Positions 31,627 to 40,602 of a stretch of 64,000 nucleotides of DNA are shown here, in pieces. The position numbers and the translations under genes were made by a program. Each line of letters starts with the position of its first letter. Within the stretch, counting starts at the first letter, position 1. The stretch spans positions 1-64,000 of the IMG/VR virus record IMGVR_UViG_3300017917_000199. The stretch is one strand, 5' to 3'. The notes beneath the pieces were generated by a model, which worked only from the letters and a program-made list of their open reading frames with translations, ran no database searches and had not been told where the DNA came from. The DNA comes from a virus.

Positions 31627-32013
31627 TTAGTAACTCAACTTAACAAAATTTACACCACCGCTGTTTAAATCAACAACTTTTGCTCTTAAAAATACAAAGT
31701 TGCCTTCAATGTTTGTATATACGCTTGCATTGCTTGCAATCTTTGGTGCTGTGTTTGCAGGAGCATTTGCGTTTGCTTCTAGCTCATAAACTTTGAACCA
31801 GTCAGTACTAGAAGGTGTTGTAGCTAAACTTGCCTCAATGACAATATTACCAGTCAACTCAGTGGCTTTGATATTGACAGTTTGTAAATCTTTATTACCT
31901 AAATAATATGCAGCAGCCGGTTGGCTAGTACCAGTGACTGTATAGGGTGCACCGTTACCTGGATTTATATATGTTGTTTGAGGCAACAATATTAGTGTTG
32001 TGGTTTGGCTCAT
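31627..32013 (-). CDS. Probable small virion protein, beta-rich
   Basis: 128 residues, rich in Thr/Ala/Asn and predicted beta strands (TTTLILLPQTTYINPGNGAP; VYTNIEGNFVFLRAKVV). Composition like tail or head decoration proteins. ATGA overlap with the 55-residue gene upstream, driven by the same late promoter. Confidence 0.5.
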   Translation of the reverse strand: MSQTTTLILLPQTTYINPGNGAPYTVTGTSQPAAAYYLGNKDLQTVNIKATELTGNIVIEASLATTPSSTDWFKVYELEANANAPANTAPKIASNASVYTNIEGNFVFLRAKVVDLNSGGVNFVKLSY

Positions 32014-32201: not shown

Positions 32202-32209
32202 TATTTATC
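32202..32209 (-). promoter_or_regulatory. Late promoter GATAAATA
   Basis: GATAAATACT on the minus strand, in the gap after the 243-residue gene; drives 32177-28636. Confidence 0.62.
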
Positions 32210-32213
32210 ACTT

Positions 32214-32945
32214 TTAGATATTATCTGGACGCTTTTCTAGCTTGTACTTTTTACCGAGAATGTCACCATGCATTAGTGCTAAGTAGCTTAGTGTAGATTC
32301 GTCATCATAATCAATGAAATGTGCCGAACTTGTCCATCTAAAATGCCAGATTCCCCATCGTTTAGGGTCACGGTTCATCCAACGCTTTAATGCATTACTG
32401 GGATGCAGTGTCTTTTGACGGTTAATTGTTTCTTTAAATTCATCTAAAAACCCGTCTTCAACACGCTTAGATTTCAAATATATTCGATATTTGTGTTTAG
32501 GTTCTTCAACAAAGTGTTTGACCCCAGCATATTGACTAGTTTGAACCTGTGTATAGTCTGGATTATACATAGGACCAAGCTCTTGTGCAATTGCTTGTAA
32601 TTTTGATAAATCGTTACAAAAAATAGCAACAGTATCACCCTCAATACGCATAGACATATCTTTAGTTTTCTTACGGGTATTCTGTAAGTTAAGCAAAGTT
32701 TTTAATGCATTTTGATTTTGAATTACATCAGGTAAGTCAGCTTTTTTGATAGAGCCGAATCTGTTACTTTTGCCTGCAATCTTATTGTCAAATTCGGCAG
32801 CCGTCTTACACCACCAAATGTATCTCGCACAAGGGATGTTTACCCTCATGCGATACTCGTAATTGTTATAGTATGTATTGTCCCGATACTCATAATAATT
32901 GATACCGGGAACATTATCAACTGACTTCAATAATCCCATCTTCAT
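32214..32945 (-). CDS. Conserved hypothetical protein after clpA
   Basis: 243 residues (an alternative ATG two codons in is equally placed). Rich in Tyr, Trp, Arg and Lys (YYEYRDNTYYNNYEYRMR; RKKTKDMSMRIEGDTVAIF; PKHKYRIYLKSKR), suggesting nucleic-acid contact. Begins inside the clpA end. Not recognised. Confidence 0.55.
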   Translation of the reverse strand: MKMGLLKSVDNVPGINYYEYRDNTYYNNYEYRMRVNIPCARYIWWCKTAAEFDNKIAGKSNRFGSIKKADLPDVIQNQNALKTLLNLQNTRKKTKDMSMRIEGDTVAIFCNDLSKLQAIAQELGPMYNPDYTQVQTSQYAGVKHFVEEPKHKYRIYLKSKRVEDGFLDEFKETINRQKTLHPSNALKRWMNRDPKRWGIWHFRWTSSAHFIDYDDESTLSYLALMHGDILGKKYKLEKRPDNI

Positions 32946-35187
32946 TCACCCTTGCGTTAGTAGCTTGAACAGAATTGAACTCAATTCCATCACCGTTCAT
33001 TACACATGTAATATTAGCATTTTTGATACGCTCAAACAAGATTTTTTTAGATAGAGGCACCCTAATCAATTCGTCAATCTTACGTGCTAGAGGACGTGCG
33101 CCCATTTTCTTGTCATAACCTTTGTCTGCCAAATATTCAATGACAGGCTCGGTTAGGTTCAATGTGATGTTGTGCTTATCCAACAGTGTTTTCTTGAGGT
33201 CTTCAGTGAATTTAACAACAATCTTCTTAATCGCAAGCATGTCAAGTTTACCGAACTTGCAAACAAGATCCAAACGATTACGGAATTCAGGCTTGAAGAA
33301 TTCTTTCAGTGCTTTGTCATCTTCACCTGTACGCTCTTGTGTACCGAAACCAATGTTATTACGTTCGTTGTCACTAGAACCCAAGTTACTGGTCATAATG
33401 ATGATAGTGTTCTTACAGTTCACTTCTTTACCATTACTACCTGTGATTCGACCTTCATCAAGGATCTGCAGGAAGATGTTGAAAATATCAGGATGAGCCT
33501 TTTCAACTTCGTCAAACAACATGATTGAGTGTGGATTCTTACTCAAGTCGCTGATTAGTCTACCACCACCAACTTGACTGTCACCGAATCCAACATAACC
33601 AGGGGGAGGACCGATCAAGCTAGATACACTGTGCTTCTCTGAATATTCACTCATATCATACTTGAGCAATGGCATGTCAAGGTTCTTACTCAACAACTTA
33701 GCCAATTCTGTTTTACCTGTACCTGTTGGACCTAAGAACAAGAAACTAGCCATTGGCTTTGTTTCATTGTTAATGCCAGCAAAACTTACATAGACACGTT
33801 CAAGTACTTTGTTGACAGTTTCGTCCTGACCATATAGTTTGCCCTTAACGTTAACTTCAAGAGTATTAATACGGTCAAAGTTGTCACCTGAAAGTTTATC
33901 AGCAGGCACACCTGTGAATTTTTCTACTTGTTCGTAAATCAATTCTTTAGTAATTACTGCACCTTCATTGTTTGCAACACGTTGTTTAGCACAAGCCGCA
34001 TCAAGCAAATCAATGCTCTTATCAGGATTCTTACGGTCGTGAATGTAACGACCAGCTAATTCAACTGCTGTACTAATTGCGTCTTGTTCGATTTCAACAT
34101 GATGGAACTCAGCCAAACGTGTAGACAATCCAGAAAGAATGCGTACAGTAGATTCTTGGCTAGGTTCATCAACACCAACACGATAGAATCGACGCATCAA
34201 TGCACGATCCTTTTCGAAAGATTCGTAGAATTCTTCCCATGTAGTGCTTGCGATAACTTTCAGTGTTCCCTTAGTAATTGCAGGCTTAATCATATTGGCA
34301 AAGTCAACTGATCCGTTGTTAGAACCACCTGCACCCTGCATAGTATGTGCTTCATCAATGAACAGAATAGCTTTCTTCTTACTGTTCAATGCGTCAATAA
34401 CCAGTTTGACTTTTTCTTCAAAGTCACCGCGATACTTACTACCAGCAAGCAACGCACCAACTTCAAGGCTGTAAAGTTCATGGTCTTTTAAGAATTCAGG
34501 AATATCATTCTCGTGGATTTTTAGTGCAAGACCTTCAGCAATAGCTGTTTTACCTACACCAGGATCACCTACCATCAATACGTTACTCTTAAATTTCTTA
34601 GCAAGAACATTAACGATATCGTCAATTTCTTTTGTGCGACCAATCAGTGGTTCAATCTTACCAGCTGCTGCCAATTGAGTTAGATTAACAGTGTATTCTT
34701 CCAGAATTTCATTGGCTTGGTCATCTGTAAGTTTGTTAGTTGTTTCACTGTTCTTATAATGTTTCTGCCAGTGTGCAACAAACTCATTCTTGTTGACACC
34801 GTATTTTAGCAAGTAGTAATGGGCATGACTGTTACCTTCACTTGCGATAGAAAGATACAAGTCAACAGTTGTAACTTGACGGCGGCCAGTAAACAAAACT
34901 TGTGTCACACTACGATTCATTACTCGTTCAAGTGAGTTTGTTCGTTTGGGTTGGACTTCTTCCTGTACATCCTTCACAACGATTGCGTGTAGGCTATCCA
35001 AATAAGCAACAACATCTTGTGTCATTGCATCAACTTCAACGCCAAAACTATCTAAACACTTTTTAAATGGCTGATGCGTAATCAGTGCCAATAGCAAGTG
35101 TTCAATTGTGCAATATTGGTGGTTACGTTCTTTAGCATACTCAATGGCATGCTCGATGATGCTTTCAATTTCGGGACTGTTTTGCAC
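32917..35187 (-). CDS. clpA: ClpA-like AAA+ unfoldase with ClpP-docking loop
   Basis: 756 residues from GTG 35187 (AAAGGAAAC as SD), which aligns with the ClpA N-terminus; a longer reading would overlap dnaJ. N-domain IEHAIEYAKERNHQYCTIEHLLLAL; AAA1 Walker A GDPGVGKTAIAEG (about 208) and Walker B LFIDEAHTM; AAA2 Walker A GPTGTGKTELAK (about 480). NNIGFGTQERTGED carries an IGF tripeptide where ClpA and ClpX dock on ClpP. No clpP gene is here, so it would recruit host ClpP. Directly behind dnaJ: a phage-borne unfolding/degradation pair. Confidence 0.92.
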   Translation of the reverse strand: MQNSPEIESIIEHAIEYAKERNHQYCTIEHLLLALITHQPFKKCLDSFGVEVDAMTQDVVAYLDSLHAIVVKDVQEEVQPKRTNSLERVMNRSVTQVLFTGRRQVTTVDLYLSIASEGNSHAHYYLLKYGVNKNEFVAHWQKHYKNSETTNKLTDDQANEILEEYTVNLTQLAAAGKIEPLIGRTKEIDDIVNVLAKKFKSNVLMVGDPGVGKTAIAEGLALKIHENDIPEFLKDHELYSLEVGALLAGSKYRGDFEEKVKLVIDALNSKKKAILFIDEAHTMQGAGGSNNGSVDFANMIKPAITKGTLKVIASTTWEEFYESFEKDRALMRRFYRVGVDEPSQESTVRILSGLSTRLAEFHHVEIEQDAISTAVELAGRYIHDRKNPDKSIDLLDAACAKQRVANNEGAVITKELIYEQVEKFTGVPADKLSGDNFDRINTLEVNVKGKLYGQDETVNKVLERVYVSFAGINNETKPMASFLFLGPTGTGKTELAKLLSKNLDMPLLKYDMSEYSEKHSVSSLIGPPPGYVGFGDSQVGGGRLISDLSKNPHSIMLFDEVEKAHPDIFNIFLQILDEGRITGSNGKEVNCKNTIIIMTSNLGSSDNERNNIGFGTQERTGEDDKALKEFFKPEFRNRLDLVCKFGKLDMLAIKKIVVKFTEDLKKTLLDKHNITLNLTEPVIEYLADKGYDKKMGARPLARKIDELIRVPLSKKILFERIKNANITCVMNGDGIEFNSVQATNARVNEDGIIEVS

Positions 35188-35203
35188 TATAGTTTCCTTT
35201 AAG

Positions 35204-36031
35204 TTATTTGTTTTTGGCTTGAAGAATGCTATTTTTAATAGCAGAGTCAATTTTATCAGGGACGAATGGTTTAATCAAGATGATTTGGTCTCCAAACAAG
35301 TTTGTATTTGGAATGGGCATTCCTTGACCTGCAATCTTCAACTGCATATGCGGCTGCGTATTTTCTGGTACCGTGACTGTGAAAGTTTTTCCCGAAATCG
35401 TTGTGAATTCAAACTCTCCGCCCGCAATTAAATCTAATACAGAAACTCGTTGGTTACAGTAAAGGTCGTTCCCATTTCTTTCGAACTTTAAATGTGGTCT
35501 GATTTTAAATTCTACAAGCAAACTTGCACCATCAATCATATTATCAAAACGTACTTGTCCACCGTCTGGGATTCCTTTGGGCACCTTAATTGTTATTACA
35601 TGATTTCCTTTTGGTGTTTGTAACTGCAATGTTTGTTCTGCACCATTGTAGACTTGTTCCAAATCAACTACCACTACCGTCCTAAACATTTGCGGTTGTT
35701 GTTGTCGTTGTTGGTGATGCCCAAACATTTGACTAAAGAGGTCGTTCATGTCAAATCCATTGACATTAAAACTGAACCCTCCGGGCCCAAAACCAGCCCC
35801 ACCAAATGGCCCGGGTCCTGGACCAAAGCCCCCTGGTCTGTTAAAAGGGTTCTCGTACTCTTGTCTTTTTTGTGGATCTGAAAGAATGCGGTACGCTTCT
35901 TCGATTTTTTGGAATGTAGCAGTATCACCACCTCGATCTGGGTGGTGTTGTCCTGCTAATTTGCGATATGCTTTTTTGATTTCGTCTGGGGTAGCGTTTC
36001 TGTCTACCCCTAAGGTTTTAAAATGGTCCAT
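35204..36031 (-). CDS. dnaJ: DnaJ/CbpA-type co-chaperone
   Basis: 275 residues. J-domain 1-66 with HPDRGGD in place of the usual HPD tripeptide context (HPD present), Gly/Phe-rich linker ([20 protein letters not shown]), then two C-terminal substrate-binding beta domains. No CxxCxGxG zinc fingers, so type II (CbpA-like). Delivers substrates to host DnaK. Perfect sigma-70 promoter; the -10 ends 6 bases before ATG and no SD is visible, so leaderless. Followed after 16 bases by clpA. Confidence 0.93.
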
Positions 36032-36037
36032 ATATTG

Positions 36038-36066
36038 ATTTTAACAGAGTAACTGTTAGTTGTCAA
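36038..36066 (-). promoter_or_regulatory. Sigma-70 promoter for dnaJ-clpA, leaderless
   Basis: Minus strand: TTGACA (36066-36061), 17-base spacer, TAAAAT (36043-36038), then CAATAT and ATG. Textbook spacing; overlaps the holin stop codon. Confidence 0.82.
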
Positions 36067-36069
36067 TAT

Positions 36070-36603
36070 TTATTTGGCAGCACCTTCAATTTTTTCTTTT
36101 GTGCGGCCATATGCAGCAATACCTAGAACTGCACCCATTGCTACGTGATACAAACCTGCACCTTGCAGTGTCAAGGGTTGCCATTGACTAGTCACATTAC
36201 CTTTACTTAATGCTTGTAATATTGACCATAAAATAGGGAACAACACAAAGTCTGCTGTACATGTTGCCATATACACCCAGCCCATTACAGGGCGCCACTT
36301 TTTATTGATCCAATCTGTATTGTCATTTGCAACTAACACATCTGCACCTTGGGCAGCATTAGAACCTGCTTGTGTTAAGTTAGGCTGAGGTTGTGGTTGT
36401 TGCTGTAGACCGCTGTAGTTATTTACAGCAGCGGTTCCAAAATTGTTTGGTGAACCATATGCTGACATTGATGGACTTCCAAACTTACTACCTTGCGGAA
36501 ATTGTTGTATAGTTGGATCAGCAGCCAATTGTTCGTGGTGCTCATCGTCTAGTGCCATGGGCTGTTCAAATCCAGCCTTCTTAGGTAAAATAGTCTGTGC
36601 CAT
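36070..36603 (-). CDS. Holin (3-TM family)
   Basis: 177 residues. A 95-residue Gln/Pro/Asn-rich cytoplasmic part is followed by NKKWRPVMGWVYMATCTADF and LQGAGLYHVAMGAVLGIAAY, the pattern of the three-transmembrane holin family seen in aquatic phages and gene-transfer agents. Would open the inner membrane for the GH19 endolysin at 47435-48058. Lies in a late operon with two virion-like genes. Confidence 0.75.
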   Translation of the reverse strand: MAQTILPKKAGFEQPMALDDEHHEQLAADPTIQQFPQGSKFGSPSMSAYGSPNNFGTAAVNNYSGLQQQPQPQPNLTQAGSNAAQGADVLVANDNTDWINKKWRPVMGWVYMATCTADFVLFPILWSILQALSKGNVTSQWQPLTLQGAGLYHVAMGAVLGIAAYGRTKEKIEGAAK

Positions 36604-36605
36604 TT

Positions 36606-37154
36606 TTATAGTCCTGCTATTGTTTTAAAATCACGAATTTCTTTGTCTTGGCTATCAAAAATATCTTTAGTTTCTAATCCAGCAATTTCACGCATTTCGT
36701 TTATTTCTTGTTCTTTTTCAACCTTCATACGATATTCGTGCGGGCTTAAAACGATTGCTGATTTTAGAAGACTTACATCTGGCTTGTATTCTTTATCATC
36801 CACAACAACTGTCCATTCATTTAATTTAAGTGCGGTTAATGTTTTTAAATCACTTAGTAATTCTACGATTCTTTCTGGAACTTTCGTTCTACGATCCATT
36901 TCTACAAAAACCAAATACTTACCCGGAGAAACTTCCCCTTCGCTTACTTGTGCATCTAACACAAAATCATATCCGCGTTCAAACCAATCAGCTAAATCAC
37001 TACCTGCTAATTCACCGGAGACAGTAAATGCTAATGTAACTATCTCACTATCTTCACCCATTTTAGCTGAGTATTCATCAACCGTAACTTCGGGAACGAT
37101 TTGTCCTTCAAAATCGTGATAGTCTAACCCTTCAAATAACTTACTATTGCTCAT
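36606..37154 (-). CDS. Conserved hypothetical with duplicated [RT]-x-IAGL tail motif
   Basis: 182 residues. Beta-rich front with acidic character; the C-terminus contains EINEMREIAGLETKDI and again EIRDFKTIAGL, an internal repeat. The 706-residue head protein ends in a similar DWKKLAGIK, so this short motif recurs. Could be a docking peptide for head or tail assembly. Not otherwise recognised. Confidence 0.6.
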   Translation of the reverse strand: MSNSKLFEGLDYHDFEGQIVPEVTVDEYSAKMGEDSEIVTLAFTVSGELAGSDLADWFERGYDFVLDAQVSEGEVSPGKYLVFVEMDRRTKVPERIVELLSDLKTLTALKLNEWTVVVDDKEYKPDVSLLKSAIVLSPHEYRMKVEKEQEINEMREIAGLETKDIFDSQDKEIRDFKTIAGL

Positions 37155-37159
37155 AATCT

Positions 37160-37750
37160 TTACATTGTTGGTGTAGTTGTTCCAGGCTGTTCAGCAGCTT
37201 GACCTGTCTGTTCTTCGTCACCTTCTGTTTCGCCTTCGTCTAAATCTTCTTCATAGCTATCATCTAAATCTTGCAAGTCGATTGTTTGATCCGCTAAGTC
37301 AATAGATCCTTGACGTATTTCGTTCATTAGTTCTTTTGGCATTTCAATAAGAACTAACCAAATTTCTTTTTCTTTACTCTTGGGATATCTTGTACCAGGA
37401 ATGTAATCTTCGTAATTTTCAACTGCAATAGGTACTTTGATTTTTGTCTTTTTAAACTTCAATTTGCAGCCGATTGAAACTAAACGTTTTGCTCCTGCTG
37501 GATCGGGCATGAGTTTGTAAGGATACATGAATATGCAACTAACACTGTATCTACGAACTGTAGGACCTTGAACAAGTTCACCTAGTTCCCAGTTTTTAAA
37601 TGCATATAGGTCGGCTTCGTCTAATACACGTTCAAAGTCTAAAAGTGTAGACATAGAACCGTCGCTAGTGAAGATTCCCTTGACGGTATCAACAATGCTT
37701 ACAAAGTCAACATCATTGAAAAATTTATCGGCTGTTTTGTCATCTATCAT
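37160..37750 (-). CDS. Conserved hypothetical late protein
   Basis: 196 residues. Mixed alpha/beta body (residues 1-150) and a strongly acidic, Gln/Thr-rich tail (DSYEEDLDEGETEGDEEQ). First gene of the late operon ending in the holin. A late element ends 7 bases before the ATG with no SD. Likely virion or assembly factor by context only. Confidence 0.58.
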   Translation of the reverse strand: MIDDKTADKFFNDVDFVSIVDTVKGIFTSDGSMSTLLDFERVLDEADLYAFKNWELGELVQGPTVRRYSVSCIFMYPYKLMPDPAGAKRLVSIGCKLKFKKTKIKVPIAVENYEDYIPGTRYPKSKEKEIWLVLIEMPKELMNEIRQGSIDLADQTIDLQDLDDSYEEDLDEGETEGDEEQTGQAAEQPGTTTPTM

Positions 37751-37757
37751 AGTTAAG

Positions 37758-37765
37758 TATTTATC
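37758..37765 (-). promoter_or_regulatory. Late promoter GATAAATA, near-leaderless
   Basis: GATAAATACT on the minus strand, 7 bases to ATG 37750. Lies in the 174-base divergent spacer that also serves phoH on the plus strand; the rest of that spacer is AT-rich with no frame. Confidence 0.6.
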
Positions 37766-38999: not shown

Positions 39000-39919
39000 G
39001 TTGTTAACTCCACTAATGTTGCTGCCATTGCTATTTCGGGAATACCGACTAATGGCAAATTTGCTAGACCATTACGAATAATAATGATACTTGCGTCTTT
39101 ACGTTCTTGGTCTTTGCCCCACAAATCCAAGTTATCGTACATCCATTTATACGTATCTTCAACTCTTGTCGGGTAAAGTGCGATATATTGCATTAACTGC
39201 TGTCTTCCCTCAAGAACTTTTCCAGATTTAAACAGTTGTGTCGCTTCCAACAACAAGTCATTTTCACTTGATCCATGTGTTTCAGGCGCTAGTAGTTTAC
39301 CTGTGCTACTATTAACTTGCAGTTGATTTAGACACTTACGCAGATCAGGATATGTTGCACGAACATACGTATCTAATGTGTCTGGATCAGCTTCAATATT
39401 TTCATTAGAAAGTACAGTAGCCGCACGAATCAAAAAGTCGTTGATATCAGGCTTAGCAATATGAAACTCATGGCATCGTGACTTTAACGCAGGGATAACT
39501 TTGTATCCATAGTTACATGTCAGAATGTATCTACAAGTTTCAGCATACGCTTCCATATCATTACGCAATGCAGCCTGTGCGTCACGTGACAGATAATCAG
39601 CTTCGTCTAATAGAACAATTTTAAACTTACCAAATGGCATTGTTTCAACAAAGCCATTGATTTTTGTTCTTACGTTTTCGACCGAGTTTTCTCTGGATGC
39701 ATTAATCTCAAGTACATCATAATCATCCACTTCAAGTTCTTTGATAAGAACTTTTGCAAGTGTAGTTTTACCTGTGCCTGGATCACCACTCAATAACAAG
39801 TGAGGGATAGATCCTTCTTTGATCCAGTTTTCAACTTGCTGCTTTTGCCTTTCGTCAACAAACACATAATCAGAAACTGTGTTTGGACGATACTTTTCTA
39901 CCCACAATTGATTTTTCAT
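38996..39919 (-). CDS. gp44: Clamp loader ATPase subunit, gp44
   Basis: 307 residues. WVEKYRPNTVSDYV start, Walker A LLSGDPGTGKTTLAKVL (about 43), Walker B IVLLDEADYLSRDAQ, arginine-finger/sensor motif LKSRCHEF. Loads gp45 on primed DNA for gp43. ATGA-coupled to the BI-1 gene. No gp62 partner is evident in the window. Confidence 0.95.
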   Translation of the reverse strand: MKNQLWVEKYRPNTVSDYVFVDERQKQQVENWIKEGSIPHLLLSGDPGTGKTTLAKVLIKELEVDDYDVLEINASRENSVENVRTKINGFVETMPFGKFKIVLLDEADYLSRDAQAALRNDMEAYAETCRYILTCNYGYKVIPALKSRCHEFHIAKPDINDFLIRAATVLSNENIEADPDTLDTYVRATYPDLRKCLNQLQVNSSTGKLLAPETHGSSENDLLLEATQLFKSGKVLEGRQQLMQYIALYPTRVEDTYKWMYDNLDLWGKDQERKDASIIIIRNGLANLPLVGIPEIAMAATLVELTT

Positions 39920-40602
39920 TCTTTTTTATCACCAAATAGTTGTAACAATGACAAGAATATATTAATGAAATCTAGGTACAATGTCAATGCCCCGGTGACT
40001 TCTGCAATCCCAGTATCAGTATCATACATGACCATTTCACGAATTTTTTGGGTATCATACGCTGTCAATCCCAAAAAGATAATGATAGCTAGTGCAGAAA
40101 TTACCATTTGAAATACAGTGCTACCTACAAAAATGTTAATGATGCTGGCAATAATGATTGCAATTAAGCCAACAAACATGAACTTGCCTATGCTGTCTAG
40201 GTTGTTCTTAGTAAAGTACCCATATAGACTCATGGTTCCAAATAGTACTGCTGCTCCCATGAATGCTGTAAAAATGCTACCCATTTGGTATACAGCAAAG
40301 ATAGTAGCAAAACTTAGTCCCATCAATGCTGCAAATCCATGTAGCATCAATAGTGCGATAGATTTAGGTGGACCAGCATTTAATGCAATGGTAATTGCAA
40401 AAATAGCTGCTAGTGGAGCAAAGATTACAACCCACTTTAATACTCCTGTAAAAAAGAATTCTAGTAGTTGTGGAGTAGTACCAACAAAATAACTCACTAG
40501 CATACTAATAATAACAGCGACACTCATGTGGCTATAGACATTTGCCATAGCAGTGTTGATTTGTGCTGCTGAACGATAGGTTAAAGTATCTGAATAGCTC
40601 AT
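39916..40602 (-). CDS. Bax inhibitor-1 family membrane protein (YccA-like)
   Basis: 228 residues, seven hydrophobic segments from about residue 28 to 220. LGLTAYDTQKIREM near the end is the BI-1 signature, with the paired Asp residues (YDTQ, YLDFINIF) of the calcium-leak/pH site. The bacterial relative YccA modulates FtsH proteolysis. In a phage it could protect new membrane proteins or delay host membrane stress. Embedded in the replication operon between a hypothetical and gp44, both by ATGA overlap. Confidence 0.88.
   Translation of the reverse strand: MSYSDTLTYRSAAQINTAMANVYSHMSVAVIISMLVSYFVGTTPQLLEFFFTGVLKWVVIFAPLAAIFAITIALNAGPPKSIALLMLHGFAALMGLSFATIFAVYQMGSIFTAFMGAAVLFGTMSLYGYFTKNNLDSIGKFMFVGLIAIIIASIINIFVGSTVFQMVISALAIIIFLGLTAYDTQKIREMVMYDTDTGIAEVTGALTLYLDFINIFLSLLQLFGDKKE

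Follow-up and report, generated by a model that had tools for sequence, protein, structure and literature searches.

A 64,000-nucleotide (nt) stretch of viral DNA from IMG/VR record IMGVR_UViG_3300017917_000199 (hereafter the window), part of an 84,961-base virus record (the own record, G000) that is a fragment of a jumbo phage genome, encodes a J-domain protein (dnaJ), a ClpA-type AAA+ unfoldase (clpA) and a third protein, orfX. We propose that dnaJ-clpA, possibly together with orfX, is probably one arm of a phage-encoded proteostasis set of ClpS, ClpA, ClpX, ClpP, HSP20 and J-protein. In the proposed mechanism, ClpA would unfold substrates at the expense of ATP and hand them to ClpP, and its IGF loop would dock it on a ClpP whose gene lies in another part of the phage's own genome. 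ClpS would bring N-degron substrates to ClpA, and ClpX would power a second route into ClpP. HSP20 and the J-protein would hold unfolded chains, and the J-protein would recruit host DnaK to load or keep clients. Candidate substrates are misfolded virion proteins, spent phage proteins and host proteins. The net result would be phage-controlled folding or destruction of proteins while a very large virion is made.

The arrangement of the genes is strongly conserved. As relatives we took the best 80 of 279 stretches that a scan of viral contigs had brought up (77-83% identity, contigs of up to 364 kb). A dnaJ homologue lies directly 5' of clpA on the same strand in 80/80 of them, one being cut by the contig end. 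Immediately 3' of clpA, orfX is present in all 77 loci with more than 800 nt of downstream sequence and in 78 of the 80 overall. We consider it likely that dnaJ, clpA and orfX form one transcription unit. An initial annotation of the window had described an operon of two genes; the pair stands, but the third gene had been missed. A large group of related freshwater jumbo phages has kept the unit whole, and ClpA ranks with the best conserved proteins that the fragment encodes; control over protein quality by the phage therefore probably matters to these viruses.

No clpP (PF00574), clpS or clpX is found in the 84,961-base own record, and the initial annotation had taken the lack of clpP to mean that the operon is able to capture host ClpP. 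Its relatives suggest otherwise. A survey took in 25 other records, 16 of them from relatives and nine from reference phages (among these Atu_ph07, Phosso and PA5oct); clpP was found in 19, including 6/6 relatives of at least 200 kb and 9/9 reference phages. For nine further contigs, expectations were set down before the result was seen. All three contigs with at least 63.7 kb past clpA contain clpP, and none of the six with at most 60.1 kb does; of the positives, L057 and L072 had been predicted beforehand and L005 had been called likely. When the surveys are pooled, clpP is present in 12/12 records that run on for 63 kb or more past clpA, at a distance of 51-68 kb downstream, and in 1/14 shorter records (G006), the own record being one of these 14. 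The own record is collinear with relatives G001 and G002, and on both maps its left end is 18-27 kb short of the clpP cluster. Since the fragment ends before the position of the cluster in its collinear relatives, its lack of clpP is very probably a consequence of truncation. We infer that this very phage carries the clpX-hsp20-clpS-clpP cluster, with the absent genes likely located beyond the left end of the fragment. The absence of clpP is thus true of the record, but probably not of the phage. To conclude host ClpP capture from a missing clpP is a natural but misleading step, one that anybody working from a phage fragment might take.

In G001 and G002 the cluster has the order clpX, ribosomal protein S21, hsp20, clpS, clpP. 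Within the clade, counted as the own record and the 16 relatives, clpS and clpP have identical distributions, both being found in the same 10 of 17 records. Nine of the ten clpP-bearing records have clpX, all ten have hsp20 close to clpS, and six (G001, G002, G004, G006, G012 and G014) have S21 between clpX and hsp20. The catalytic Ser-His-Asp triad is present in 16/16 phage ClpPs examined. Phage ClpP scores 318 bits against NF001368 (ClpP subfamily; cut-off 249) and 303.6 against TIGR00493, just under its cut-off of 308.6, and is below the cut-off of the head-maturation model. In a tree built by a quick method, a supported branch (SH-aLRT 97) sets the 16 phage rows, two of which have long branches, apart from 40 cellular rows (every second one of 80 was dropped). 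By these sequence criteria the ClpP of the relatives is canonical. The positions of the E. coli ClpP docking pocket are mostly preserved in the phage ClpPs. The phage ClpS retains the ND and His of the N-degron pocket.

The window ClpA looks well suited to work with such a protease. Its Pfam domains are Clp_N, AAA, AAA_lid_9, AAA_2 and D2-small, and its phage family is phrog_4871 (788 bits). E. coli ClpA (1ksf) is its best solved relative (3.5e-180), and residues 7-732 align to it without a middle-domain insert; residue numbers refer to a 757-amino-acid (aa) numbering that begins one codon upstream of the GTG, at 35190. This GTG, at 35187, is probably the start of clpA, rather than the TTG listed at 35250. 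The initial annotation, which had described a ClpA with intact Walker motifs and an IGF loop, named catalytic defects in the AAA modules as evidence that would count against its proposal. In each of the two modules Walker A and Walker B are intact, and so are the arginine-finger motifs and the IGF. Across 81 ClpAs there is next to no variation in the two Walker A motifs or in the catalytic Asp-Glu of either Walker B motif. In the docking loop I, G and F are each found in 81/81, and the residue two positions further on varies (T in 34/81). This strict conservation of the IGF supports the view that the window ClpA is made for ClpP docking. Clp_N, two AAA modules with Walker A and B, D2-small, the lack of a middle domain and the IGF together place it in the ClpA type of the Clp/Hsp100 proteins. 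Identity as a ClpB/Hsp104 disaggregase was ruled out by the absence of an M domain from the alignment and the presence of the IGF.

In the J-protein, an HPD at residues 30-32 is followed by a G/F-rich linker, C-terminal domains (CTDs) I and II and a C-terminal helix. Pfam finds no zinc-finger domain, and there is a single Cys only. Its best solved relative is T. thermophilus DnaJ2 (6psi; 6.2e-32). In the AlphaFold model (pLDDT 88.5) the J domain and the C-terminal domains are predicted well, and there is a helix at the C terminus. Because J domain, CTDs and C-terminal helix are all seen in the model, we assign the protein to class B (type II), in line with the initial annotation; HPD, G/F region, CTD I/II, helix and missing zinc finger all agree with this class, and dimerisation is predicted. 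The HPD is present in 80/80 J-proteins, and one row is truncated at that position. HSP70 was found in only 2 of 26 phage records, and in 1 of the 17 of the present clade. In most of these phages, host DnaK is therefore the most likely partner of the J-protein. A full-length HSP70 gene was observed in one clade relative, L111 (G014:75600-77399).

The protein families, the catalytic and docking motifs, the conservation of operon and promoter (described below) and, for the relatives, which records have clpP, clpS, clpX and hsp20 and where these genes lie can be read directly from the sequences. The phage Clp subunits would be expected to assemble with each other; docking of host ClpP could be a side activity of the phage ClpA.

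Several observations weigh against the proposed proteostasis set, in addition to the missing clpP, clpS and clpX of the own record. Against TIGR02639, the NCBIfam ClpA equivalog model, the window ClpA scores 794 bits and the L001 ClpA 786 bits, both under the cut-off of 993; the window protein is therefore filed as ClpA-type and not as a ClpA equivalog. In the docking pocket, 15 of the 16 phage ClpPs have S, N, A or H in place of Y60, and F112 is often Y (numbers of mature E. coli ClpP). Aat makes N-degrons in E. coli, and it is absent from 18/18 records. The position of clpP also varies: in G006 it is upstream of clpA, not downstream, and in G011 it is on the strand opposite clpA, with clpX undetected.

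The unit has its own promoter. The consensus promoter pointed out in the initial annotation, TTGACA-17-TAAAAT with a TG extension, is borne out as the best of 33 sites in a 14-kb scan, in which there is no overall excess of sites. A sigma70-type site matching at least 9/12 positions and ending 5-8 nt before the dnaJ ATG is found in 55 of 59 distinct upstreams; shuffled upstreams contain such a site in 1.3 cases on average and in 5 at most (200 runs). A ribosome-site-like sequence is present in 3/59 distinct dnaJ upstreams, compared with 54/56 distinct clpA upstreams. Because the -10 ends so close to the ATG and a ribosome-site-like sequence is mostly absent, the dnaJ message appears to be leaderless and would start at the ATG. 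The promoter spacer contains an inverted repeat. In 39 aligned relatives, which are not independent, its mean perfect stem is 4.77, versus 3.25 (sd 0.14) in mononucleotide shuffles, a test of stem length only. The dyad is strong in a subset of relatives only, and its arms change yet still match, as in an operator. An octamer like the one that adjoins the -35 is found in 10/59 distinct dnaJ upstreams. In L055, the sigma70-type dnaJ promoter is absent and a perfect TATAAATA is in its place.

The timing of expression is less certain. The late-type motif GATAAATA occurs in 57 of 389 intergenic upstreams, where 6.1 are expected, and the NATAAATA promoter class, to which it belongs, precedes in the window genes that match head-tail adaptor and tail sheath families and others of that block. 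G001 and G002 (L114-L149) have a strong sigma70-type class, TTGACAxTAAATGGxTTTGGxxxTATAAT, mostly with leaders of ~30 nt. This is likely to be the early class, and in a few cases a copy ends 6 nt ahead of an ATG, as at dnaJ. The initial annotation called the operon early, but the unit sits among late-type structural genes, and its promoter lacks the spacer shared by those strong promoters that occur most often in the phage. Given its own sigma70-type promoter and the flanking late-type promoters, transcription could be early, middle or late. A temporal transcriptome of PA5oct is mentioned in PMC6950013. Sigma70-like sites of at least 10/12 are mixed across the second cluster (clpP upstreams 6/12, clpS 6/10, clpX 2/9, hsp20 0/10), and a general proteostasis regulon was rejected on this ground. 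The features of the window are collected in the table.

Features of the dnaJ-clpA-orfX unit and its surroundings, in window coordinates.
Feature	Position	Strand	Details
dnaJ	35204..36031	-	class B (type II) J-domain protein, 275 aa; PF00226 + PF01556 (Pfam)
clpA-type AAA+ unfoldase	32917..35187	-	GTG start, AAGGA ribosome site
IGF tripeptide, predicted ClpP-docking loop	33346..33354	-	residues 613-615; aligned with E. coli ClpA IGL
orfX	32214..32945	-	243 aa; third gene of the unit; 29-nt overlap with clpA end
sigma70-type promoter TTGACA-17-TAAAAT, TG extension	36038..36066	-	-10 ends 6 nt before dnaJ ATG
inverted repeat TAACAG/CTGTTA in promoter spacer, possible operator	36042..36058	.	
AATAAATA, late-promoter-like octamer	36067..36074	-	adjoins the -35
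GATAAATA late-type promoter	37758..37765	-	before virion-protein/holin genes reading towards dnaJ
GATAAATA late-type promoter	32202..32209	-	before next gene (31627-32013); downstream boundary of the unit
holin-like protein	36070..36603	-	upstream neighbour; PF11351 1.7e-7
two virion-structural-type proteins	36606..37750	-	upstream neighbours; phrog_13138, phrog_12928
Bax1-I (BI-1) protein	39916..40602		Pfam

How the unit is used can be explained in other ways. The strongest competitor, which we regard as possible, is that ClpA and the J-protein mainly fold or remodel virion proteins with little or no proteolysis. Passages of PMC7824862 suggest that the ClpA of jumbo phages serves in assembly or as a translocase and that phage DnaJ recruits host HSP70. 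A role in assembly would fit the location of the unit, which has two genes for virion-structural proteins, a holin-like gene and late promoters as neighbours, and in PA5oct the unit is in the same place, with neighbouring proteins detected in virions by mass spectrometry. However, DnaJ and ClpA themselves are not marked in the PA5oct record as detected by mass spectrometry, an absence that is weak evidence. The unit's own sigma70-type promoter, the strict conservation of the IGF, which points to ClpP docking, and the presence of clpP and clpS in the same genomes also argue against a role limited to assembly.

We find it unlikely that the phage makes an unfoldase without a protease and, soon after infection, turns the host's ClpP and DnaK on substrates of its choice, the redirection that the initial annotation had proposed. 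The invariant IGF, the own record without clpP and the host-type promoter of dnaJ are all compatible with it, but clpP is present in every long-enough relative (12/12) and in 9/9 reference phages, and the late-type context of the unit leaves early timing uncertain. What can be kept of that proposal is a J-protein that most likely acts on host DnaK and a ClpA fit to dock ClpP; a need to capture host ClpP is not supported. Slightly less likely still is takeover or counter-defence, in which the J-protein ties up host DnaK or masks DnaJ-dependent sensing and Clp destroys host or defence proteins. There are printed precedents: RB43 Rki, a type III J-protein, ties up host DnaK and stabilises sigma32 (PMC3486835, in part), and bNACHT25 is an instance of DnaJ-dependent defence sensing (PMC12169576, in part). 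The sigma70-type dnaJ promoter would also suit this explanation. However, the window J-protein has a full class B architecture with CTDs, unlike Rki, and the unit is near-universal in the clade, whereas PMC7824862 argues that patchiness is to be expected of host-targeted peptidases. We therefore retain the proteostasis set as the favoured explanation. A more ambitious form of it is put forward only tentatively: a complete virus-coded network of ClpS-ClpA-ClpP, ClpX-ClpP, HSP20 and J-protein, apart from host Clp, with a leaderless and possibly repressor-controlled promoter and a ROSE-like hsp20 thermometer. If true, such a network would be a viral proteostasis organ and not a hijacking device.

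The surroundings of the unit are largely conserved. A holin-like homologue is directly upstream of dnaJ in 58/73 relatives, each of the two virion-type genes is close to dnaJ in 70/73, and phoH is on the opposite strand upstream of dnaJ in 68/73. The Bax1-I protein is patchy, being found in 14/64 of the relatives' loci and above cut-off in 6/26 records, and it was ruled out as a fixed partner of the unit for this reason. The initial annotation had seen a proteostasis theme that included this protein. The theme holds and appears much larger than the window shows, but BI-1 is not a constant part of it. Against the YccA model the Bax1-I protein scores 28.6 bits (cut-off 353), and a link to FtsH regulation is by family only. 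OrfX has an AlphaFold model with a pLDDT of 90.4 and no Pfam match in 53 members examined. Its confident matches are uncharacterised phage proteins only, one of them from Atu_ph07. Assignment of an orfX function by PDB fold was rejected, as the listed matches all had TM <0.3 and were taken as noise.

Some further features of the second cluster were observed. A second, divergent ClpP-like gene (28% identity) lies beside the canonical clpP in L236 (4347-4922; G012). In G001 an opposite-strand frame between hsp20 and clpS (L122 8943-9623) resembles, by eye, a GIY-YIG homing endonuclease, and the own record has, at its right end, a frame that matches it weakly (45.6% identity, 54 bits). The hsp20 leader (L122 8456-8523 and its equivalents in relatives) has a conserved hairpin and CTTGCTT ahead of the ribosome site. 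In 10 sequences, compensatory changes are seen at 6 of 11 predicted pairs. In a 181-base search the leader scores 27.8 bits (E 3.5e-4) against the ROSE_3 RNA thermometer, below the gathering score of 43, and at the gathering threshold Rfam has no match in the three loci searched. The exact leader pattern is found in 92 viral stretches. Among 80 of these that were examined, an HSP20 frame follows in 76 and ATAAATA precedes the pattern in 80.

Several known systems are similar to the one described here. In Atu_ph07 dnaJ is also directly upstream of clpA (gp293-gp292), and passages of PMC6102473 give seven Clp proteins and list ClpX, ClpA, ClpB, a proteolytic subunit, ClpS and DnaJ; our search found an HSP20-like frame as well. 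It differs in that its ClpA is 38% identical and its ClpX, ClpS and ClpP genes are scattered, with no single cluster. PA5oct has the same phoH/virion/virion/dnaJ/clpA order and the same clpX-hsp20-clpS-clpP order. However, its ClpA identity is 40%, no holin-like gene is annotated between, and its second cluster is 31-52% identical. Sinorhizobium phage Phosso has co-directional dnaJ and clpA and its own ClpP and ClpS; its ClpA is 42% identical, and a peptide deformylase gene lies between dnaJ and clpA. This insertion is not general, since peptide deformylase was found in only 3/18 records. An N-degron idea was rejected on this count and on the absence of Aat noted above. A Sinorhizobium jumbo phage with six Clp proteins has been described in the literature, as far as the available text goes. 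In RaK2, XaC1, SCTP-2 and Vibrio phage 2.275, no dnaJ is annotated next to clpA.

Moraphages are likewise aquatic jumbo phages, with ClpA as a core orthologous group and DnaJ common (PMC12619734, in part). The passages concerned stress DnaK/DnaJ and Bacteroidota hosts, whereas HSP70 is rare in the present clade, and they describe no dnaJ-clpA operon. For phages with ribosomal protein bS21, passages of PMC9723584 place HSP20 and two Clp proteases at most 10 genes from S21 in a 900-phage set. The phages of that study also carry chaperones and Clp protease, but their S21 is beside terminase and capsid genes and not between clpX and hsp20 as here. HSP20 has been reported in large freshwater phages, in the portions of the literature available, and the text examined of PMC7162821, on huge phages, makes no mention of Clp. 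E. coli ClpA, in ClpAPS, shares the length, domains, IGx loop and lack of a middle domain, but there clpS adjoins clpA, a place taken here by the J-protein gene. RB43 Rki also acts as a phage J-protein on host DnaK, an action that is predicted for the present J-protein too; according to passages of PMC3486835 Rki is type III, early and toxic, whereas the J-protein here is class B with CTDs.

In the open PMC subset, which covers neither subscription papers nor preprints, we found no description of a conserved dnaJ-clpA operon, of its apparently leaderless promoter or of a clpX-S21-hsp20-clpS-clpP order. The parts of the system are already known from other jumbo phages such as Atu_ph07; what is new is the conservation of the dnaJ-clpA operon, its promoter and the explanation of the missing clpP by truncation.

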